A stretch of 44,838 bases of DNA. Source: a virus. Shown here piece by piece: positions 11,399 through 39,586 of this stretch. The notes beneath the pieces were generated by a model. The model was not told where the DNA came from. It made no database searches and saw only the letters and a program-made list of their open reading frames with translations. The DNA lies in the IMG/VR virus record IMGVR_UViG_3300033143_001244, positions 1-44,838 of that record. One strand, 5' to 3'. The position numbers and the translations under genes are program-made. Position 1 is the first letter of the stretch, and each line of letters opens with the position of its first letter.

Positions 11399-13186
11399 TT
11401 ATCTTCTTCCTAGCATACGATAGTATAATCGTTTAGCATGACCTACTATAATAGGTGTTATACCTACAATACCTGCAACTATACTTGTCATAGTAATACT
11501 ACCAGCAATCGTTTTGAAAGACACAAAACTCGGAAACAGATTGCCGATAGCAGTTATTGATGAAGTAAATAACTTAGAAGTCTTTTTAAATAGTGCTCCA
11601 GTTGCTGTTATACTACCAGCTAAACGCATAGGTATCTTTTTAAGTAATAGTCCAGTTGCAGTTATACCACCAGCTAAAGCTTTACCTGTTCTTTTAACTA
11701 TAGTACCAGAAGCAGTTATTGTACCTGTTACTGTACGTTGCACAGTTATTAAGGTATCTAATAAACCAGAGGCAGTTATAGAACCAATTAGGAGTAATGA
11801 CATTCTTTTAAAGACAGTCCCTGCTGAGGTTAAAAAGCCTTCTAATGTTTTCAGAGTCTTCTTAGCCAGAATGCCACTACTTGTTATTGTACTACTAAAT
11901 AGGATACTTGTTTTCTTATTTACTGTTCCTGCTACAGTCATTGAACCACTGACAGCTTGATAAAATAAACCTACTACCTTATTACCAACTAATACACTAG
12001 TTGCTGTTATACTACCTGTGAATGTTCTGAAGTATAGCTTTGCAGTAGTAAGTATACCTGAACCTGTTATACTACCAGTAAACGACTTAAATGTTTTTTT
12101 AGTTATACTACCTGTGCTTGTTATGACACCTACAAGATGTAAAGGTATTCTCTTTAATAGTATACCAGATGCAGTTATACTACCTGTCAATACTTTAACA
12201 ACTTTCTTGACTCCAGAGACGATACCAGAGCCTGTAATAGACCCTGCGAATGCTCTTACATAAGTTGTAGCTTTAGTCAGTAAACCAGAAGGTGTAATAG
12301 AACCTGTGAATGTTCTAAACGCAGTTAGTACAGTAGATAAAGCACCTGTACTAGTCAAAGAGCCAACTACTGTTCTAAACGCAGTTAGCTTAGTTGCTAC
12401 AATACCTGCAGCAGTTATAACACCTGCCATTAGTCTAGCAAATAAGTTAACCGATGTCATAGCACCAGTACCAGTTAAAGACCCAACAGGAGTTGAATAA
12501 TATAGAGTGCCCGATATTTTAGTTATTGTTGCTGAGCCAGTACTGTTATAAGCATCTAATCCTTTTACTCGAAAAAGCATTGCATCGCTGTCTGCTAAAT
12601 CAGCAGCGATGAACTCTATAGTATATTCAACTTCAACAAAATCTAAACCTAAGAAATCAGCATCACCACCAATACCATCTTCAATAATACCCGCGTTAGG
12701 GGATATTATCGTGCCTATTATTTGTGCAGTAGTATCTCCCCCATTTGTTATATTAGTAGAATCAAAAGCTTTGACCTCCGATGAAACGGTAGTCATGTCT
12801 GTCCAAGCACCAGCGTTCAACTGATATTCCATTTGACCGTCTAAATACGTTTCAGGATTATCTCCAAACTCATAAATAACAAATCGCAATCTTTGTTGTA
12901 CGTTACCTGAACTTACATCTATATCTAAATTATTGTTAGCAAGAACAGGCCAAGTAGCGGTAGTTTCATTACCATCGTCTTCACGCCAACGATATTCATT
13001 TTGTCTCCAAGTTGCAGGAGGAGGGGGTATGGTAATAGTAGAATGAGCAGTTACGGTGTAAGTTTGATTGCCGTCATTATTACTATCATATACTTGAAAT
13101 TCTACTACATCCCCATCCGCTAAATCTGCTTTAATAAACTCAAGTGTGTATTCTATTTCCCATTCTTCATTAGCTAGAATGTCCAT
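11399..13186 (-). CDS. Large fibre/structural protein, 3-prime part of a frameshifted gene (595 aa)
   Basis: The first 220 residues form a beta-rich, lectin-like domain (YRWREDDG and SEVKAFDST motifs) ending in EVEYTIEFIAADLADSDA. From about residue 230 to 575 the protein consists of some 16-18 imperfect repeats of about 20 residues with core GSITASGxLxK, basic and hydrophobic. The preceding frame (13174-13554) encodes a second copy of the same beta domain and runs out exactly where this frame takes over, so both parts probably were or are one protein of about 720 residues. Likely a tail or head fibre. Confidence 0.6.
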   Translation of the reverse strand: MDILANEEWEIEYTLEFIKADLADGDVVEFQVYDSNNDGNQTYTVTAHSTITIPPPPATWRQNEYRWREDDGNETTATWPVLANNNLDIDVSSGNVQQRLRFVIYEFGDNPETYLDGQMEYQLNAGAWTDMTTVSSEVKAFDSTNITNGGDTTAQIIGTIISPNAGIIEDGIGGDADFLGLDFVEVEYTIEFIAADLADSDAMLFRVKGLDAYNSTGSATITKISGTLYYSTPVGSLTGTGAMTSVNLFARLMAGVITAAGIVATKLTAFRTVVGSLTSTGALSTVLTAFRTFTGSITPSGLLTKATTYVRAFAGSITGSGIVSGVKKVVKVLTGSITASGILLKRIPLHLVGVITSTGSITKKTFKSFTGSITGSGILTTAKLYFRTFTGSITATSVLVGNKVVGLFYQAVSGSMTVAGTVNKKTSILFSSTITSSGILAKKTLKTLEGFLTSAGTVFKRMSLLLIGSITASGLLDTLITVQRTVTGTITASGTIVKRTGKALAGGITATGLLLKKIPMRLAGSITATGALFKKTSKLFTSSITAIGNLFPSFVSFKTIAGSITMTSIVAGIVGITPIIVGHAKRLYYRMLGRR

Positions 13187-18553: not shown

Positions 18554-18558
18554 GAACT

Positions 18559-18576
18559 GGATGAACAAGTTCATCC
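18559..18576. repeat. Inverted repeat directly after terminase gene
   Basis: GGATGAAC-AA-GTTCATCC is a near-perfect palindrome 6 bp past the terminase stop. As RNA it can form a hairpin, but no U-tract follows, so it is not a standard terminator. It could be a processing site, a weak pause site or a protein operator. Confidence 0.4.
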
Positions 18577-18713
18577 TGTACTCGCTTATTAAATTTATTA
18601 AGTTATAAAAAGTGGACGAATCACTAGGTACAGGTTGTGTACATGAACAGGCGCCCTGGCTAGCTTCCTTACCCCTATAAGTTGTACTTATGAGCACATT
18701 AATTAAGTCAATG

Positions 18714-18761
18714 TTAGTGTATTAGTATGTTAGTATATTACTATATTAGTATATTAGTGTG
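18714..18761. repeat. Six tandem 8-bp iterons (TTAGTATA-like)
   Basis: TTAGTGTA, TTAGTATG, TTAGTATA, TTACTATA, TTAGTATA and TTAGTGTG follow each other with no spacer. Eight-bp tandem units in an AT-rich intergenic region are typical of initiator-binding iterons or of a microsatellite. No initiator protein is recognised in the window. Confidence 0.6.
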
Positions 18762-18801
18762 TCACATGTCATACTATATAGCATACTGTCTATATTCTAA
18801 T

Positions 18802-18817
18802 ATTACTATATAGTAAT
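18802..18817. repeat. 16-bp perfect palindrome
   Basis: ATTACTATATAGTAAT is fully self-complementary. Its half-site TTACTATA equals one of the iterons 60 bp to the left, so the same protein may bind both, as a dimer here and as an array there. Confidence 0.5.
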
Positions 18818-18899
18818 GTACTTGATTGACAGTATTAATATATAAGTACATTCTTAATAAGTATATCTTATAGACATATAAAATACTTATAAGGAAGAG

Positions 18900-18941
18900 T
18901 TTGCATTTGTTTGCGTTGTTTGCAGTTATATATACTATAAT
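18900..18941 (+). promoter_or_regulatory. TTTGC triplet repeats and TATAAT box of early promoter
   Basis: TTTGCA (18900), TTTGCG (18910) and TTTGCA (18919) are spaced 10 and 9 bp, about one helical turn, directly upstream of TATAAT (18936-18941). There is no good -35 hexamer at 17 bp, so an activator bound at the repeats could replace it. This would drive the first early gene. Confidence 0.45.
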
Positions 18942-18990
18942 ATATATAAGTGAATAAATAAGTATACTTTATTTATTGATGAAATTTATT

Positions 18991-19008
18991 TATATCTATA
19001 TAGATATA
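18991..19008 (+). promoter_or_regulatory. 18-bp palindrome / leader hairpin before boxA
   Basis: TATATCTATATAGATATA is perfectly self-complementary and ends 5 bp before boxA. In rRNA leaders a hairpin (boxB) also precedes boxA, so the order here is similar. The stem is all A-T apart from one pair in each arm, so stability is modest. Confidence 0.4.
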
Positions 19009-19013
19009 TCTTA

Positions 19014-19025
19014 TGCTCTTTAACA
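19014..19025 (+). promoter_or_regulatory. boxA-like antitermination signal
   Basis: TGCTCTTTAACA, continuing AATTT, equals the boxA found in E. coli rRNA leaders and spacers, where NusB/S10 bind RNA and make RNA polymerase resistant to termination. It lies in the leader of the first early gene, on the transcribed strand, and a Rho-independent terminator follows that gene at 19596. This supports boxA-dependent antitermination. Confidence 0.65.
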
Positions 19026-19051
19026 ATTTGGTGAATAACTGTTATAGATTT

Positions 19052-19073
19052 TACTAATGATTGAAAATTAGTA
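19052..19073 (+). promoter_or_regulatory. Stem-loop downstream of boxA
   Basis: TACTAAT and ATTAGTA form a 7-bp stem with an 8-nt loop (GATTGAAA). Lambda nut sites also place a hairpin after boxA, but the loop here is not the GNRNA pentaloop bound by N proteins. Role uncertain. Confidence 0.4.
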
Positions 19074-19090
19074 CTTCTTAATAGATTTAA

Positions 19091-19112
19091 ACTATAACAA
19101 TTCCGTTATAGT
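19091..19112 (+). promoter_or_regulatory. Inverted repeat upstream of first early gene
   Basis: ACTATAAC-6nt-GTTATAGT is a perfect 8-bp inverted repeat 22 bp before the ATG. It could be an operator for a dimeric repressor or a leader hairpin near the ribosome site AGGATAT. Confidence 0.4.
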
Positions 19113-19134
19113 ATAAACTAATGAGGATATTATC

Positions 19135-24155: not shown

Positions 24156-24493
24156 GAGGGAACAATAAACGTAAGCTAATCCCTGAAGAGATTTTATTTG
24201 CTATATTAAAAGACTATCGGGTAGGTGTACCGCTATCTAAATTAGTTAAGAATTACGATATGGAGATATCAACCCCTCACCTACGTAAACTACTCTTTAT
24301 ATATATAGACATTTTGGACATAAGTCAAGATGAAGCATATCGTACCAACTTGCGCAATGCAATCTTCCCTGCCTGGGTCAAGTATGCAACTAGTGCTATG
24401 GTACAACCAGACAGATGGACCTATGTAGGTAAGTTCCCATTTGGCCAGTGGGGAGTGCGAATAAAAGCACTGCCTACGGAGGCCAATAAATGA
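24152..24493 (+). CDS. Putative helix-turn-helix-type protein (113 aa)
   Basis: The N-terminal part (EEILFAILKDYRVGVPLSKL, then DMEISTPHLRKLL) has the look of a resolvase-like helix-turn-helix: a helix, VPLSKLVKNY, then a second helix. The C-terminus is Trp/aromatic-rich (DRWTYVGKFPFGQWG). Coupled to the primase-helicase by overlap. DNA binding, perhaps origin or primosome related, is inferred only. Confidence 0.45.
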   Translation: MRGNNKRKLIPEEILFAILKDYRVGVPLSKLVKNYDMEISTPHLRKLLFIYIDILDISQDEAYRTNLRNAIFPAWVKYATSAMVQPDRWTYVGKFPFGQWGVRIKALPTEANK

Positions 24494-26781
24494 AGACAAT
24501 ACAACCGTTCATTGACTTAGGCTTTTACACTGTACCTCTTACTGGTAAATTAACACGATTAGAAAATGGTGATAAGACTACACCAGGTTTTGAGAAGAAC
24601 TGGAAAGCTAAGAATCAAAAAGACTTTAACGAGAATGCAACAGAATTAGGAGGCGCTATTACAGGAGCTATCTCCAACATAATAGCGATTGATTGTGATG
24701 ACCAAGGAACCTACGACCTCTTTGCCGCTTTGGACAAAGACAACACCTTTCACTTTATTTCTAAAGGAAAACCCAAAGGTGGCGGAACTATTATATACAA
24801 GTATCCCACAGGTGAAGCACTTGAATCTTTCTCAATACAATCTAAGCTTATGCACTTGGACTTTTACTCCGACAATGGTTTCGTATATCTTCCATCTGGA
24901 GCTAATCAAACAAAAGAGCCATGGAACTTCGAATCATTTGATGAGCTTCCACCTCTCCATACCGTACCAGACACCGTGCTTAGACTGCTCCTTAATCTCC
25001 AGTTACAATACACATTAGGTAAAGGTCAAGCTAAACAGGAAGACCCAAACAAAAGTATTAAAGTACGGTCTAATTACCTGGCACCACAAATTGAGTTACT
25101 AATAGCTAAGAAGACATTCATCCCTTCTTTGTTTCGTATCATAACACCTAAAGACTTCAGAGACTTACCACAATATAAACAACATGGATATTTGCATCCT
25201 AACTCTGTACCTGAAGGTAGAGGTAGTGAGTACTTATCTAAAGTATCAGCTATCTTTGGTGCAGACCCATCCGTTGGTAAAGAGTTATACTTAACTGCTA
25301 TGGCTCTTATTAATGACATGTGGGAATATCCTATCAATGCCAAGAAGTTTAATAATACTATACTAACTCCAATGGTTGAAGGTCGTAGTAGTATCGCAGG
25401 TGAACCCATCTGGCAGTACGATGAACACTGGAAGACCAGAGGACTTGCCTTTACTACTAAACTTGGTGATGCCTTAGAGGTATTCTATGACGATGTCAGA
25501 GCCTGTTACTACGTCATAAATTATACTAATGACATGATAAAAGTATTCTATAAAGAAGCTGACATGATGGGGTATATAGAACCTGTTGCTGTTGCCTTAC
25601 CACCTCGCAAAGAACTGAAGGCTATGGTGCCTGTCGTACGTACTGCCCTGGAACCTACTCTACCTTATGGATTCTACTCAGAAGATGATTATAGTAGACA
25701 GTTTAATGTCTTTAGACAGACTCCTGCATTAGCTATACTAACTAAACCAGAAGATTATAAAGACTTATACAACAGACCTAACACAATACTTAACTTCTTA
25801 CATACTTTAGTACCTGATGATATCATGCGTAACTATCTATTAGGTTTCTTAAAGCGTAAGCTAACCACATTTAAGTACTCACCAGTTGTACTCTATTTCA
25901 TTGGTGCACACGGTTCAGGCAAAGATACATTCATTAACATATTAGCTTCTATCATGGGTGAGAACTTTGTTGCTAGACCATCAGCTAAAGAATTCATTGA
26001 ACAATACAATGGTTGGATAGTTGATAAGTTCTTTGTACAGTTAGATGAGTATGGTAATCAGCTACATACGTTAGCAGATAAAGAGACTGCCCTAGGTAAG
26101 ATTAAATCATACTCTGGTAAACCTCAAATGCAGATACGACAGATGCGAACTGATGGTTTCCCGTACAATCACTTAATGACTATGGTCATGTCAGCTAATT
26201 CTAATCCTCTTATGTTAGAAGATGGTGACAGACGTGTAGCTATGATAGAGACACCTAATATATTAAAGAATGCTGATTGGGTTCATACTGCTGGAGGCAT
26301 GACAGCTGTCATTGATAAGATACAGACTGAGATAAATGACTTTGCATACTACCTGGCTACTGAGGTTAACACAATCTCCTGGGATAGTTATATGGATGCA
26401 CCAGAGACTGATTCTAAGCGGGACATAATATCATCTAAACTACCAGCAGCACAAAGACTTGCATATTACTTTAAGCATAGTATGTTTGAGCAACTGGAAG
26501 AGGTTGTTGAAGAAGCTGGTCAGGCTGCAGTACTACAACACTCTGCATCAGGTCGTATATATGAAGACGATTTGTTTGAGTTATATAGTTACATGACAGA
26601 AGGTCGTGGCACTAAGAGAGGATTAACAAAGGTTATGCGTGAGCATGACTATGAAAAAGTACCAACATCTAAAGCAGGTGTGAAAGCATATTACTACCAT
26701 ATTAATACTTTGACACACTATAAACCAACTATATTTAATGATGAGACAGATAATAAATCTGCTGACGTAACGGGAGTATAA
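24490..26781 (+). CDS. Primase-helicase: PrimPol domain plus SF3/D5-like helicase (763 aa)
   Basis: The N-terminal 150 residues show a bifunctional primase/polymerase fold: IIAIDCDD (acidic metal ligands near residues 66-71), GKPKGGGTIIYKY and LDFYSDNGFVYLPSG (third acid at about 124). The C-terminal ATPase has Walker A GAHGSGKDT (472-480), Walker B FVQLDEYG and a motif C region MVMSANSNP, as in DUF5906/D5-type replicative helicases. One protein thus makes primers and unwinds the fork. GGAGG precedes ATG. Confidence 0.85.
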   Translation: MKTIQPFIDLGFYTVPLTGKLTRLENGDKTTPGFEKNWKAKNQKDFNENATELGGAITGAISNIIAIDCDDQGTYDLFAALDKDNTFHFISKGKPKGGGTIIYKYPTGEALESFSIQSKLMHLDFYSDNGFVYLPSGANQTKEPWNFESFDELPPLHTVPDTVLRLLLNLQLQYTLGKGQAKQEDPNKSIKVRSNYLAPQIELLIAKKTFIPSLFRIITPKDFRDLPQYKQHGYLHPNSVPEGRGSEYLSKVSAIFGADPSVGKELYLTAMALINDMWEYPINAKKFNNTILTPMVEGRSSIAGEPIWQYDEHWKTRGLAFTTKLGDALEVFYDDVRACYYVINYTNDMIKVFYKEADMMGYIEPVAVALPPRKELKAMVPVVRTALEPTLPYGFYSEDDYSRQFNVFRQTPALAILTKPEDYKDLYNRPNTILNFLHTLVPDDIMRNYLLGFLKRKLTTFKYSPVVLYFIGAHGSGKDTFINILASIMGENFVARPSAKEFIEQYNGWIVDKFFVQLDEYGNQLHTLADKETALGKIKSYSGKPQMQIRQMRTDGFPYNHLMTMVMSANSNPLMLEDGDRRVAMIETPNILKNADWVHTAGGMTAVIDKIQTEINDFAYYLATEVNTISWDSYMDAPETDSKRDIISSKLPAAQRLAYYFKHSMFEQLEEVVEEAGQAAVLQHSASGRIYEDDLFELYSYMTEGRGTKRGLTKVMREHDYEKVPTSKAGVKAYYYHINTLTHYKPTIFNDETDNKSADVTGV

Positions 26782-33292: not shown

Positions 33293-33681
33293 TACTAAGA
33301 AAAGAAATACAGTTTGGAACACACGCAGGGTTCATACAACGTATCACTGAGTGGAACAATGCACGATATGGTGCACAACTATTAAACGTAGCACTGACTC
33401 ATGAACTATTAAAAGAAGAAGTTGGTGAGTTTAATGAAGCTACTACTCAAGTAGATACATTAGATGCATTAGTTGATATTATATATGTAGCTACTGGTGC
33501 AATGGTTAAAATGGGTTTAAGCGAGCTGCAGATTTATAAGGCTATACATGCTGTATGTGATGCTAATGACTCTAAAACAGTAGTTAAGACTAAAGCTCAT
33601 GTTAAAGCTAATGTTGATAAAGGTGTAGATTTTATGCCGCCAGAGACACGCTTACAGGAGATTCTTGATGAACTCACATGA
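33289..33681 (+). CDS. MazG-like all-alpha NTP pyrophosphohydrolase (130 aa)
   Basis: Shows the all-alpha NTP-PPase pattern: ELLKEEVGEFNEA (metal-binding Glu residues) followed by DTLDALVDIIYVATGAMVKM with D and D, then a third helix. The superfamily includes MazG, PRA-PH, and dCTP/dUTP pyrophosphatases, T4 gp56 dCTPase among them. It overlaps the hydroxymethylase (ATGA), and GAGGTGAAAGC precedes ATG. If the hydroxymethylase is real, this could be the dCTPase that removes normal cytosine nucleotides. Substrate is inferred from context. Confidence 0.7.
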   Translation: MILRKEIQFGTHAGFIQRITEWNNARYGAQLLNVALTHELLKEEVGEFNEATTQVDTLDALVDIIYVATGAMVKMGLSELQIYKAIHAVCDANDSKTVVKTKAHVKANVDKGVDFMPPETRLQEILDELT

Positions 33682-34351
33682 AGAGTTAGCTTTAAAAACC
33701 GCATCAGAATCACCATGTGAAAAACGTAAGGTAGGTGCAGTATTAGTATATCAAGACACAGTATTGAGCTATGCTAATAATTATCACCCAGATGCTTTTA
33801 GTGTATGTGAACTAGCTGATGGTAGTACTGACCCAAAGGTTATTCATGCAGAAGTTGCTACTTTAGATGCAGCACATAAAGCGTTTGACCATATGCACGT
33901 ACCATTAACTCTTTATGTTACACATAATCCATGTACTAGTTGTTTAGATTATATTAATCATTATGCTAAGCAGTATGGTATAGTTATTAAGATTAAGATT
34001 GTTGAGCAGTTTATGAAGTTTGATTCAGGTAAACTTGCTTATGATTTAATACCACCTACGTGGATTGAACTTGATGCTGAAGTACTAACTAAAGGTGCAC
34101 AGAAGTATAAACCTAATAACTGGCGGCAAGTTAAACCAGAAGAGATTATGCGTTATTACTCTGCTGCTATGCGTCACATACAAGATTGGAAGAAATTTAT
34201 GGATGGTCTTCCTGAAGGTCATTTATTTGATGACGGTGAAATGGGTATAGGCACACATCATTTAGCTAATGCAAGAACTAACCTGGGTTTTTTATTAACA
34301 TTAACAGAAACGCTTGAAAAAGCAGAGGAAATTAAAAATGGAAACAGTTGA
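33668..34351 (+). CDS. dCMP deaminase-like domain fused to dATP/dGTP diphosphohydrolase-like domain (227 aa)
   Basis: Residues 1-112 form a zinc deaminase: HAE (H60, E62) and PCTSC (C89, C92). Residues 117-212 match the dATP/dGTP diphosphohydrolase N-terminal-type domain: KFDSGKLAYDLIPP, LTKGAQKYKPNNWR, AMRHIQDW, FDDGEMGIGTHHLANA with conserved K, NW, RH, DD and E residues. Both act on the nucleotide pool. The fusion is unusual. Start at ATG 33668 with AGGAG 7 nt upstream. Confidence 0.72.
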   Translation: MNSHEELALKTASESPCEKRKVGAVLVYQDTVLSYANNYHPDAFSVCELADGSTDPKVIHAEVATLDAAHKAFDHMHVPLTLYVTHNPCTSCLDYINHYAKQYGIVIKIKIVEQFMKFDSGKLAYDLIPPTWIELDAEVLTKGAQKYKPNNWRQVKPEEIMRYYSAAMRHIQDWKKFMDGLPEGHLFDDGEMGIGTHHLANARTNLGFLLTLTETLEKAEEIKNGNS

Positions 34352-34685: not shown

Positions 34686-34905
34686 CAAAGAGTTAGGTAT
34701 AGCTGCGGCACAAGTTTATTATTATAGTCAAGCGTACGGGTCATTAACAAGACATGTAAGAGCTGAAGATGCTATTAAATTATTCTTACCGCCAGTTACT
34801 GAGATGATGGTACAGTACACAGCACCATTACCTCAAGATAGAAAAGACTGGTTAGCTGGTTTTAAAGAAGAACAAGCTAAGATTAAGCTTGATTTGTGTT
34901 TCTGA
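34675..34905 (+). CDS. Hypothetical protein (76 aa)
   Basis: TTG start, supported by GGAGTGTTACAG and overlap with the RyR gene. Helical, with a C-terminal VRAEDAIKLFLPP and WLAGFKEEQAKI. Its stop codon lies within the first 10 bases of the repeated leader element. No family recognised. Confidence 0.45.
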   Translation: MPTNKELGIAAAQVYYYSQAYGSLTRHVRAEDAIKLFLPPVTEMMVQYTAPLPQDRKDWLAGFKEEQAKIKLDLCF

Positions 34906-35043
34906 CGATTCTGGGCCTCCTAAGGTCTTGTTTAAGAAGTTTAAATTAGATATTGATATAATCATCAAGGCTAAAAACGGAGTCCTTAGAATCGACCTAA
35001 GGAGTCCGTTAGCCTAAGTCATTGATTTATAAGGAGTTTTTAT
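34899..35043 (+). promoter_or_regulatory. Duplicated structured leader, copy A (riboswitch-like)
   Basis: A 145-nt element before the Cas4-like gene, homologous from end to end with 39086-39239. Shared ends: TTTCTGACGATT, AGGTCTTGTTTAAGA, TTAGAATnGACC and TTGATTTATAAGGAGTTTTT. It forms AGGCTAA/TTAGCCT around CGGAGTCCTTAG/CTAAGGAGTCCG (one mismatch). CTAAGGAG in the stem copies the true ribosome site ATAAGGAG, so TCCTTAG can pair with either. This would allow an on/off translation switch. The ligand or trigger is unknown. Confidence 0.6.
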
Positions 35044-35044
35044 A

Positions 35045-35875
35045 ATGAGTATTAAGATTAACCGAACAGAGATAGTAATACGTCCATCAAGTGTTGATTC
35101 ATTTCAACAGTGTGCTTATCAATGGGCTAAGGTATTTTTAGAAGGTCGTGTAACTATACCAAGTTCTCGTGCTGCTATTGGTACTGGTATCCATAAAGCA
35201 GTTGAAGTAATGTGGGATGAAGCAATACAGCGAGGTGTTAACGACCCTAATGTTGACATGATGTTTGATGCTGGTGTTGAGGCGTTTAAAGAAGAATCTA
35301 AGAAAGAGGGTATGAGTTATAATGAAGGTGAAACTATTGACACTTGTAATAAAGAAATCATTATTGGCACGCAAGCTTTCGTTGATGACCTTGTGCCTTT
35401 CTTGGACATTCCGACAGCTGTTGAGAAACGGTTTACCATCAATATCTCCGACCATCCGATTGTATCTGCAATTTCTGGTACTGTTGACTATATTGCTCCT
35501 GGCCGTATCGATGATGTTAAAACTAGTAAGCGGAAACCCTCACTACCTAACTATGTCACTCAGCAATCCATTTACAAATTATTAGCTGAGCAAAATGGTC
35601 ACCCAGTACAACATAGTATGATTCAAGGTGTTGTACTTAAGAAAGTACCTGAGTGTCATATTCTTGAACTTGAGCCTAATGTTGACCAAGCTAAATATTT
35701 AGTTAACCACATGCTGGATACAATTCGGGTAGCTGCAGCAGATATAGTTCCAATTGAGACTTTGTTTCATTGCAATACTAAGTACTATCTATGTAGCCCT
35801 AAATATTGTGTGCTGCATGGTGAGTGTCCAGCAACTAAAAAACATGTTCCTAAACAGGAGAAGCCTAAGTTATGA
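35045..35875 (+). CDS. PD-(D/E)XK nuclease, Cas4/RecB-like (276 aa)
   Basis: RecB/Cas4-type architecture: RPSSVDSFQQCAYQWAKV at the N-terminus with a first Cys (C22), GTGIHKAVEVMW, then GTVDYIAPGRIDDVKTSKRK containing the D and D-x-K catalytic pair, QQSIYKLLAEQ, and a C-terminal cysteine cluster (CSPKYCVLHGEC) that probably binds an iron-sulfur cluster with C22. Such phage exonucleases process DNA ends for recombination or degrade host DNA. Preceded by structured leader A with AAGGAG. Confidence 0.75.
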   Translation: MSIKINRTEIVIRPSSVDSFQQCAYQWAKVFLEGRVTIPSSRAAIGTGIHKAVEVMWDEAIQRGVNDPNVDMMFDAGVEAFKEESKKEGMSYNEGETIDTCNKEIIIGTQAFVDDLVPFLDIPTAVEKRFTINISDHPIVSAISGTVDYIAPGRIDDVKTSKRKPSLPNYVTQQSIYKLLAEQNGHPVQHSMIQGVVLKKVPECHILELEPNVDQAKYLVNHMLDTIRVAAADIVPIETLFHCNTKYYLCSPKYCVLHGECPATKKHVPKQEKPKL

Positions 35876-36587: not shown

Positions 36588-37874
36588 ATGATGATACCGA
36601 GGGATTACCAAGCTGAGCAAGCAGAGGTCGGTGCTGAGATATTACGTAAGTACATGATTCTCTACTTAGCTTGGGAAGAACGGACTGGTAAAAGTCTGAC
36701 TGGTTTATTAATTGCTGAACTAATTAATGTAACTAATATATTAATAATAACTAAAAAGAAAGCTTTAGGTAGTGTTAAGCTTGGTGAGGGGTGGGCTAAC
36801 TTATTAGCGGAGTTTGAACATGAAAAAAACTATACACTTACTACCTACGGTAAAGCACGAGTTGGAGATTATGACCTCATTATATTGGATGAAGCGCATA
36901 ACTACATATCTGGCTATCCCAAGCCATCGGCTACCTGGAAGAAACTCAAACAGGTCTGCAAAGGCAAGCCTATTATATACATGTCTGCAACACCACATGC
37001 TCAAGGATATCAATTACTCTATCACCAATTCGCATTGTCTTCTTGGAGCCCATGGCGGAATGAATCGACTTTCTATAATTGGTTTAGACATTATGGTATC
37101 CCATATACCATTAAAATCCATGATAAAGAAGTAAACCAGTATGATAGAGTACAAGATGATATAGTAAAAGTTTGTGTAGAACATTTATTCATTACTAAGA
37201 CTCGTAAGGAGCTTGGCTTTGACCATGAACCGAAAGATGAACTGCATTATGTAGAACTTAACGATATTACTAAGCAGTTATATAATGATTCGCTAAATAA
37301 TAAAATTCTAATATTAGGAGATAGTGGTGTAACTAAATTGTTAGATACTACTATTACTATGCGGTCTACACTACATATGCTTGAAGGTGGCGTAGCAAAA
37401 GTAACCTCATATATGCCACCTAATCCTGAACATAGTATACTGCAGACAGACGTAGAAAAGATTGAGGGTGAAGCATTATATCACGTTCACTATAATTTAT
37501 GTTTCTCTAATGAGAAAATAGAGTACATACTAGAAAACTGGGGTGATACAGATGAAATCGCTATTATGTATAACTATATTGGTGAAGGTATAAAACTAAG
37601 ACAGTGGTTTAAAAAAGCAAAGATATTGCAAGCTACATCGAATGCTGAGGGTGTTGAATTATCACATATTAAGCACCTTATTATCTACAGTCAAGATTTT
37701 AGTACAGCAAGACATACACAAAGACGAGCTCGCCAAGCAAGCATGCAGCGAGAATGGGCAATCTTTGTGCATTTCTTGTTAGTAAAGAAAGCAATAAGCT
37801 GTCAAGTCTACAAGACAGTATCTATTAATAAAGTCAACTATGTTGACAGTCGATTTGAACGGGAGATGTTATGA
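36588..37874 (+). CDS. SF2 DNA helicase/translocase (428 aa)
   Basis: SF2 motifs: Q-like RDYQAEQA (5-12), Walker A WEERTGKSLT (29-38), DEAH box LIILDEAH (DEAH at 101-104), motif III MSATPHAQG and motif VI-like HTQRRARQA near the end. Resembles SNF2-type phage helicases used in DNA repair or recombination. Starts at an ATGATG 4 bp after the barrel gene and overlaps the ligase by ATGA. Confidence 0.8.
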   Translation: MMIPRDYQAEQAEVGAEILRKYMILYLAWEERTGKSLTGLLIAELINVTNILIITKKKALGSVKLGEGWANLLAEFEHEKNYTLTTYGKARVGDYDLIILDEAHNYISGYPKPSATWKKLKQVCKGKPIIYMSATPHAQGYQLLYHQFALSSWSPWRNESTFYNWFRHYGIPYTIKIHDKEVNQYDRVQDDIVKVCVEHLFITKTRKELGFDHEPKDELHYVELNDITKQLYNDSLNNKILILGDSGVTKLLDTTITMRSTLHMLEGGVAKVTSYMPPNPEHSILQTDVEKIEGEALYHVHYNLCFSNEKIEYILENWGDTDEIAIMYNYIGEGIKLRQWFKKAKILQATSNAEGVELSHIKHLIIYSQDFSTARHTQRRARQASMQREWAIFVHFLLVKKAISCQVYKTVSINKVNYVDSRFEREML

Positions 37875-39085
37875 AACTATTAGACAACTTAGCTGAGACA
37901 AACTCAACTATAGATAAACAAGCAAAACTAAGAGGTATTGCTCATCTTGATTGGGCTACCTTTATATATGCTTATAACCCTTACTTAATTTATCACATGA
38001 AATTTCGTGATGAAGAAATTAATGCTATAGGTGAACCAAATCAAGAAATGTTTAACCTGTTAGATGATGTTGCCAATAAGGTTATATCTGGTAATAAGGC
38101 TAAGGTAATGGTACGTACGTTTGCATCTAATAATGGTGACTTAATTAAACTAATCATTAATAAAGACTTACGTTGTGGTGTAACTGCTACTACGTTCAAT
38201 AAGGTTCACCCCAAGTCTATTGCACAGTTTAAAGTACAATTAGCTAAGGAAGCACCATTAGATAGTTTAAAGTATCCTTTATTAGTTCAACTGAAATATG
38301 ATGGTGTGCGTATAATAGCTGTTAACACTGGTGGTAAAGTTAAGTTTTATACTCGTAATGGTAAAGATGTAGCTCTACCAGAGTTAAGACGAGTTATTGA
38401 AGCTATACCAGCTGTTAACTATGTATTAGATGGTGAACTTACTTTAGCTAAAGGTAAACAAGATGAGCGCACTAAGATTTCAGGTATGGTAAACTCAGCT
38501 ATGCATGGCGGACGTATAAGTGAAGAGCATGTTGTATATAATTGCTTCGACTTTATGTCTCTATCACATTGGGAAGAAACAAGCTGCCCTGATATATATG
38601 AAGTGCGATATTCATTGGTAAGGGAAGTACTAGCACAGACAGATAGTACAATGGTACGGTTAGCACACACCTATGAAGCACATAGCCCAGAAGGTGTTAC
38701 TGAGATATATGAGAGTATAATTGCATCTGGGTTTGAGGGTCTTATTCTAAAGAGAGCAGACCACTTGTATACTTTTAAACGGTCTAAAGATTGGGTTAAA
38801 GTTAAAGAGATTATAACCAGTGAACTTAAGTGTATTAATATCATGGCGGGTGAAGGTAAATACCAAGGTATGATAGGTGCACTGAAGTGTCAAGGTACTG
38901 TTGATGGCAAAGAAGTAACAGTTAAAGTTGGTTCAGGTCTAACAGACTTACAACGTGGACTACCAGAGTCTGAATTTATATTCAGACAGATAGAAGTTAA
39001 ACACAACGGAGTAATAAAAGATAGTCGTACTGGTGAGTACAGTCTATTTTTGCCTCGCTTTGTTATGGTTAGGTTCGATAAGTGA
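37871..39085 (+). CDS. ATP-dependent DNA ligase (404 aa)
   Basis: Nucleotidyltransferase motifs: I KYDGVR with adenylated Lys142, III VLDGEL (185-190), IV SGFEGLILK and V WVKVKE, followed by an OB-fold (GMIGALKCQGTVDGK; SGLTDLQRG). Size and order match T7/T3-type phage ligases, which seal nicks in replication and recombination. Followed immediately by structured leader B. Confidence 0.9.
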   Translation: MKLLDNLAETNSTIDKQAKLRGIAHLDWATFIYAYNPYLIYHMKFRDEEINAIGEPNQEMFNLLDDVANKVISGNKAKVMVRTFASNNGDLIKLIINKDLRCGVTATTFNKVHPKSIAQFKVQLAKEAPLDSLKYPLLVQLKYDGVRIIAVNTGGKVKFYTRNGKDVALPELRRVIEAIPAVNYVLDGELTLAKGKQDERTKISGMVNSAMHGGRISEEHVVYNCFDFMSLSHWEETSCPDIYEVRYSLVREVLAQTDSTMVRLAHTYEAHSPEGVTEIYESIIASGFEGLILKRADHLYTFKRSKDWVKVKEIITSELKCINIMAGEGKYQGMIGALKCQGTVDGKEVTVKVGSGLTDLQRGLPESEFIFRQIEVKHNGVIKDSRTGEYSLFLPRFVMVRFDK

Positions 39086-39239
39086 TTTCTGACGATTTTA
39101 GGCTTCATGAGGTCTTGTTTAAGACATTTTAATTGAGTCTAGATATGATTAATAAGGCCTAATTTAGTCGTCTTAGAATGGACCACAGGAGCCCAGGATT
39201 TGGAGGCTCCTAAGTCCTTGATTTATAAGGAGTTTTTAT
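39086..39239 (+). promoter_or_regulatory. Duplicated structured leader, copy B (riboswitch-like)
   Basis: Begins at the ligase stop. Homologous to 34899-35043, with GTCTT-GTTT-AAGAC hairpin, long-range GACGA/TCGTC and TTAGGC/GCCTAA pairs, and AGGAGCC/GGCTCCT. CTCCT of the last stem could instead pair with the ribosome site AGGAG at 39229, and TCCTT-GATTTAT-AAGGA is a direct anti-ribosome-site hairpin. The same switch logic thus survives although the stem sequences differ, which argues for selection. Confidence 0.6.
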
Positions 39240-39312
39240 GATAAAAAGTAAGGTAATGTTATGGAGTACTCCTGAAGGTACTAATGTATTTAAACAGCAG
39301 TGGGGAAACTAA
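39238..39312 (+). CDS. Short ORF after leader B (24 aa)
   Basis: ATG directly follows the strong ribosome site of leader B and reads MIKSKVMLWSTPEGTNVFKQ to QWGN. Ends 1 bp before the nuclease ATG. It may be a leader peptide coupling the switch to the nuclease, or the remnant of a lost gene. Confidence 0.45.
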   Translation: MIKSKVMLWSTPEGTNVFKQQWGN

Positions 39313-39313
39313 A

Positions 39314-39586
39314 ATGAAAGAACAAGATATACAAGCTAAGATACAAAAATATATTAAAGCTAGAGGAGGTTACGTTGTTAAAACTATCACATCTAATCGT
39401 GCTGGTATTCCTGATTTATTGTGTTGTATTAGTGGCAAATTTATTGGTATAGAAGTTAAGATGCCAGGTGCGAATGCATCACCACTACAATTAGCTAATG
39501 GTACAATGATTGAAGCTGCTGGAGGTTTATTTTTAGTGGCGACTAGTGCAGCTGAGGTTAGAGACTTCTTGGATGCTTACTTATGA
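39314..39586 (+). CDS. VRR-NUC family nuclease (90 aa)
   Basis: Stand-alone VRR-NUC domain: KEQDIQAKIQKYIKARGG, NRAGIPDLLCCISG with catalytic Asp (D in IPD), FIGIEVKMP giving E-x-K, and a C-terminal LATSAAEVRDFLDAYL-type helix. Family members cut branched or junction DNA and are common phage resolvases. Start chosen at 39314 (MKEQD); a longer frame begins inside the preceding ORF. Downstream of leader B. Confidence 0.8.
   Translation: MKEQDIQAKIQKYIKARGGYVVKTITSNRAGIPDLLCCISGKFIGIEVKMPGANASPLQLANGTMIEAAGGLFLVATSAAEVRDFLDAYL

Follow-up and report, generated by a model that had tools for sequence, protein, structure and literature searches.

The intergenic leader that separates an ATP-dependent DNA ligase gene from a 24-codon open reading frame (ORF) in this viral genome (leader B) appears to be a copy of a mid-operon module of Kafunavirus-like podoviruses, placed mostly before nuclease genes, in which a promoter nested in an RNA hairpin would allow read-through and local mRNA to be told apart. 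We put the probability of this reading at about 0.5. The module is defined by sequence homology, complementary stem arms with a sense-strand G-U bias, a conserved loop, an AGGAG at fixed spacing, and an IHF consensus with an A-tract that is seen in both orientations. Leader B belongs to an unrecorded leader family.

The window (the whole stretch of DNA analysed, 44,838 nt) is a circular-looking virus record of 44.8 kb with a 54-bp end repeat. Its gene order is that of a podovirus, with Edwardsiella phage KF-1 (Kafunavirus), Vibrio phage VPMS1, Pseudoalteromonas phage PH1 and Dickeya phage Amaethon as relatives. No match was returned when the window was compared with phages by DNA megablast. 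The relevant features, in window coordinates, are:

34899-35044, plus strand: leader A, the same module before a PD-(D/E)XK nuclease gene, with a -10 TATAAT (34957-34962), an IHF-like site (35015-35041) and a Shine-Dalgarno sequence (SD; 35031-35036)
35045-35875, plus strand: PD-(D/E)XK nuclease gene after leader A
37871-39085, plus strand: ATP-dependent DNA ligase gene upstream of leader B
39086-39237, plus strand: leader B, the whole intergenic leader from the ligase stop to the 24-codon ORF, paralogous to leader A
39087-39179, plus strand: long stem, an imperfect inverted repeat with a promoter-like sequence in the loop
39121-39149, plus strand: sigma70-like promoter sequence, AAGACA-17-TATGAT, with the -10 at 39144-39149
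39187-39211, plus strand: predicted hairpin AGGAGCC...GGCTCCT, which includes the AGGAG block conserved in the family (39187-39191)
39211-39237, minus strand: IHF-like DNA site, A-tract AAAAACTCCTTATA followed by AATCAAGGACTTA
39227-39240, plus strand: SD AAGGAG (39227-39232) and ATG (39238) of the 24-codon ORF
39228-39273, plus strand: predicted hairpin closing the SD and ATG against ATGTTATGGAGTACTCCT inside the ORF
39238-39312, plus strand: 24-codon ORF, MIKSKVMLWSTPEGTNVFKQQWGN
39314-39586, plus strand: VRR_NUC nuclease gene (PHROG 93, E 2e-23; Pfam VRR_NUC 23.7 bits, just under the 23.8 cut-off)

Leaders A and B are 77% identical over 73 nt and 86% identical over 44 nt, and a homologue of leader B also follows the ligase gene in locus L033, whose ligase is 54% identical. 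Related loci (80 in total, from Kafunavirus-like podoviruses) were fetched with the neighbouring helicase as anchor, and homologues were sought with a profile built from A, B and L033. They were found after ligase and upstream of nuclease genes, and about 20 relatives in the helicase-anchored set carry them at corresponding gaps of the operon, in most cases ahead of a nuclease gene. The next genes encode PD-(D/E)XK nucleases, VRR_NUC, a phrog_107 exonuclease or, in one case, a helicase, or are small ORFs of no assigned function. No relatives of the 24-codon ORF were found, and L033 has a different, 100-aa ORF at the same place. Many relatives (e.g., KF-1 and PH1) are without leader B because their ligase and VRR_NUC genes overlap.

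The elements share a common anatomy: a long inverted repeat, with arms that vary from phage to phage yet remain complementary, a -10-like TATGAT or TATAAT in the loop, and often a WGGAG at a fixed spacing. In 12 of 19 elements, versus 1.3 expected, a WGGAG lies at +30 to +70 relative to the centre, mostly at +45 to +49; the set was assembled in part by eye and in part through the centre motif, and is not an unbiased sample. The pattern CTGACGATTYTRGGCYT found true homologues in viral contigs only in a near-identical contig and in L033, the other matches being due to chance. No Rfam covariance model matched the window at the gathering score (the best permissive match, E 0.34, was unrelated), and a literature search with the motif letters returned no match for long strings and only apparently unrelated papers for shorter ones. 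The odds are roughly even that these leaders form an undescribed phage leader RNA family, spread over ~20 podoviruses, in which the stem co-varies from phage to phage and has an internal promoter in its loop, AGGAG stands at a set distance, and local expression of replication and recombination nucleases is kept apart from read-through.

The long stem of leader B stands out in RNA folding (z -3.78), its inverted repeat beats 60 of 60 shuffles, and its arms are complementary beyond the sequence that they share with the family. Among the 24 elements tested first, the best inverted repeat beat all 60 shuffles in 11, and in nearly all the loop contained a promoter-like sequence. By the ungapped score, leaders A, L033 and L069 did not individually rise above all shuffles. 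The complementarity score was 14.9 for the arms of the same element and 8.9 for arms cross-matched between phages (permutation P ~5e-5, which is indicative only, as selection of the elements was done in part by eye and they are not wholly independent of one another). Since own arms pair better than exchanged arms, the complementarity is not just shared sequence. When mismatched arm pairs were counted on the sense strand with neutral scoring, G-T outnumbered A-C by 57 to 29, compared with 101:105 in exchanged arms (P 0.01) and 2103:2041 in coding windows (P 0.0045), these P values being equally indicative. The G-U bias points to pairing of the stem in the sense RNA, that is, in transcripts running through the element.

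The loop of leader B holds the sigma70-like sequence, a 9/12 match that is not rarer than chance on its own. A promoter scan of the leader region gave fewer matches than shuffled sequence, and the -35 is not conserved. The centre TATGATTAATMAG has only five occurrences in all relatives searched, always as the centre of an element, and TATGAT lies in the loop of 9 of 76 intergenic inverted repeats versus 1 of 102 coding ones. In B and its relatives, the -10-like sequence of the putative promoter sits between the two hairpin strands, a placement that is also seen in the T4 e and I-TevI leaders. Other candidates were dropped: an invertible promoter, because loops of 16-38 bp look too short; a phage-RNA-polymerase promoter, because there was no such polymerase among the genes checked, a subset of the ORFs; and also a Xer/dif site, a plasmid iteron and a hammerhead ribozyme.

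The block shared by leaders A and B, downstream of the stem, is likely an IHF DNA-bending site. High-affinity IHF sites consist of WATCARNNNNTTR plus an A-tract, the latter being found in the strongest sites (PMC8421141). The consensus is matched by AATCAAGGACTTA in B and by AATCAATGACTTA in A, with a left-side A-tract, AAAAA upstream of CTCCTTATA, in both; no other consensus site in the window has an AAAAA tract at that spacing. IHF-like sites, all with an A-rich tract, were found in 7 of 21 element flanks, versus 0.28 expected. The combination of consensus and A-rich tract at a spacing similar to that of high-affinity sites (PMC8421141) is common to A, B, L033, L069, L086, L093 and L142. In the last four the site is inverted, with an unchanged location between stem and downstream gene. 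Inversion of the shared block argues for a DNA site.

Copies of the underlying motif extend beyond the module. The 21-mer AAGTCNTTGATTTATAAGGAG was found in 31 stretches of viral contigs, versus 0 for the same pattern read backwards, and a genome collection held seven stretches with the 21-mer and none with the 26-mer. Its complement, AATCAANGACTTA, fits the IHF consensus, and the TTTTT that follows corresponds to the A-tract. Copies cluster in both orientations (80 versus 1 control matches, in loci chosen for holding the motif) and occur in unrelated settings, beside tRNA 3' ends (L014, L026), on plasmids and after promoters (L022). When the spacer was left free, scanning yielded 93 distinct matches, with GTCA (22), GTTG (8), GTCG (6) and GTGA (6) as spacers and an A/T-rich tail. 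The 21-mer is strongly enriched in viruses and plasmids and fits IHF sites, yet the GTC part of its spacer is more constant than the consensus demands, and we treat the site as putative.

Positions 39180-39239 had been read in the initial annotation as a two-state RNA switch that sequesters the SD, with AGGAGCC as a decoy for the anti-SD sequence CTCCT. The segments on which that reading was built exist (AGGAGCC at 39187-39193, GGCTCCT at 39205-39211, TCCTT at 39215-39219, and AAGGA at 39227-39231 within the SD), and the AGGAGCC/GGCTCCT hairpin that would hold CTCCT is predicted to be stable, with a pair probability of 0.77-0.96 depending on the segment folded. Folded by itself, the 39-nt hairpin segment is better than 199 of 200 shuffles (z -2.73); folded as 39180-39260, the region does not stand out (z -1.08; 27 of 200 shuffles equally good). 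However, the CTCCT at 39207, which was supposed to reach the SD AGGAG as well, paired with it at a probability of 0.00-0.07 in every context, with no alternation between decoy and SD. The TCCTT/AAGGA pairing, proposed to block the SD directly, reached 0.40-0.49 only in RNA ending at the start codon or a little past it, and dropped to 0.00-0.01 once the ORF was included, because the SD then pairs with CTCCT 39269 in the ORF. This is the strongest predicted pairing of the SD and had been missed: AGGAG pairs with CTCCT 39269-39273 in the 24-codon ORF at 0.97-0.98 (hairpin z -2.90 against shuffles), alike in long and short RNAs. Folding thus predicts an SD closed by a constant hairpin with its own ORF, and not by the proposed switch.

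The comparison with relatives points the same way. Leaders A and B are related regulatory leaders, and the likeness claimed for them holds as sequence homology but not for the named pairings, since TCCTT/AAGGA is incomplete in A and AGGAGCC/GGCTCCT is found in B only; neither anti-SD pairing is conserved in A, L033 or the relatives. Pairing preserved through changed sequence does occur across the family, but for the long stem. The base that enables TCCTT in leader B sits in the free spacer of the IHF-like motif; A and L033 have TCATT, and in most contigs carrying the motif this base is usually A, so that TCCTT/AAGGA cannot fully form there. The TCCTT-GATTTAT-AAGGA hairpin was dismissed as incidental, because the base on which it depends varies among copies of the motif. 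An mRNA switch would also not tolerate the inversion of the SD-holding block in four relatives. The supposed decoy AGGAG is part of the conserved family block, and in L071 and L085 it has the position of an ordinary SD for the ORF that follows, close after the stem. In the window, this AGGAG is separated from the gene by the IHF-like block, which brings a new SD, and the "decoy" may therefore be a displaced ribosome site. The specific decoy switch is not supported, and we consider this two-state model very improbable; the block is more likely a host DNA-bending site.

In bacteriophage T4, the leaders of gene e, soc, 49 and I-TevI form an inhibitory mRNA hairpin with a late promoter inside its 5' strand, and in e and I-TevI this arrangement silences early read-through mRNA (PMC3014915). 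In the module, a sigma70-type promoter would lie in the loop of the long inverted repeat, and messages running in from the ligase gene would carry both arms and form the long hairpin, while those from the internal promoter would be without the 5' arm. As in the T4 leaders, only upstream-initiated mRNA would have both strands, and the arrangement recurs in related phages; unlike them, the module has its SD outside the long stem, a sigma70-like rather than a T4-late promoter, an IHF-like site, and a location mostly before nucleases. A strict T4 gene e/I-TevI mechanism, in which the read-through hairpin hides the ribosome site and only the internal-promoter mRNA is translated, would agree with the arrangement of promoter and 5' strand (PMC3014915) and with L071 and L085, where AGGAG is placed as an SD right after the stem. 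We nevertheless consider it doubtful, as the start-adjacent SD of both A and B is not part of the long stem and is predicted to be equally accessible in long and short transcripts (unpaired probability 0.18 in both forms for B, 0.47 and 0.48 for A). A purely DNA feature, either an inverted-repeat operator or a replication initiation site with an IHF site, is unlikely. It would account for an IHF-like site kept in either orientation, and the window encodes an NrS-1-like primase-polymerase (24490-26781); NrSPol recognises TTTGGTTA and GTG sites (PMC8718748). RNA folding would then be incidental, which is at odds with the sense-strand G-U bias; furthermore, the arms are too variable for one binding protein, and the GC skew, which turns near 14 kb and 39.5 kb, matches the gene-strand change and locates no origin. 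A mobile palindromic repeat, or an insertion hot spot for small extra genes, without regulatory role, is improbable: there are two copies in one genome, and small unrelated ORFs follow the element in the window, L033, L071, L093 and L100, but the examined elements are sense-oriented, lie between genes in the same few operon gaps, and have complementary arms and a conserved loop.

For the promoter-in-hairpin module, the location of SD and start codon outside the long stem in A and B means that the effect of the hairpin is not directly readable from the sequence, and that processing or insulation of the read-through mRNA is more likely than strict occlusion. We infer that the hairpin most likely limits or processes this mRNA, by cleavage or insulation, and that the nuclease would then be made mainly from its own promoter. 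The downstream IHF site, also present in leader A and five relatives, would probably bend the DNA at the promoter or give a response to host state. The predicted closure of the leader B SD by its own ORF in every transcript form argues against the promoter-in-hairpin explanation. RNase III processing hairpins are found between genes of T7-like phages. The module resembles them in its long imperfect stems between early-operon genes, next to promoters, and differs in that its putative promoter is inside the loop. If the stem limits read-through, podoviruses in which no RNA polymerase of their own was identified would share with T4 the timing of dangerous nucleases in one long operon, reached by a different arrangement. 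The ~20 natural variants with different arms make the role of the hairpin testable.

Several further observations were made. Leader A has a very strong hairpin (34968-35015, z -6.4) at the predicted 5' end of the mRNA from its internal promoter. In L100, a 35-nt nearly perfect inverted repeat (1899-1986), with an 18-nt loop holding TATGAT on the other strand, precedes a 97-aa ORF. A TTG-start 13-codon ORF (MEAPKSLIYKEFL, 39200-39241) begins 8 nt past the AGGAG at 39187-39191, and its end overlaps the ATG at 39238; the PKSLI..FL of its translation recurs at the beginning of the L033 100-aa ORF. Elsewhere in the window, the product of 24490-26781 is a relative of the NrS-1-type DNA polymerase/primase (phrog_19785, 910 bits), alongside which the genome encodes a family A DNA polymerase, and one ORF (33665-34351) joins a dCMP deaminase domain to a dATP/dGTP diphosphohydrolase N-terminal domain. 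A minus-strand 595-aa ORF with ~60-nt repeats (11399-13186) perhaps encodes a tail fibre, and 8-bp tandem repeats, TAGTATAT, are present at 18715-18761, within an AT-rich region (18554-19134) that has no long ORF.
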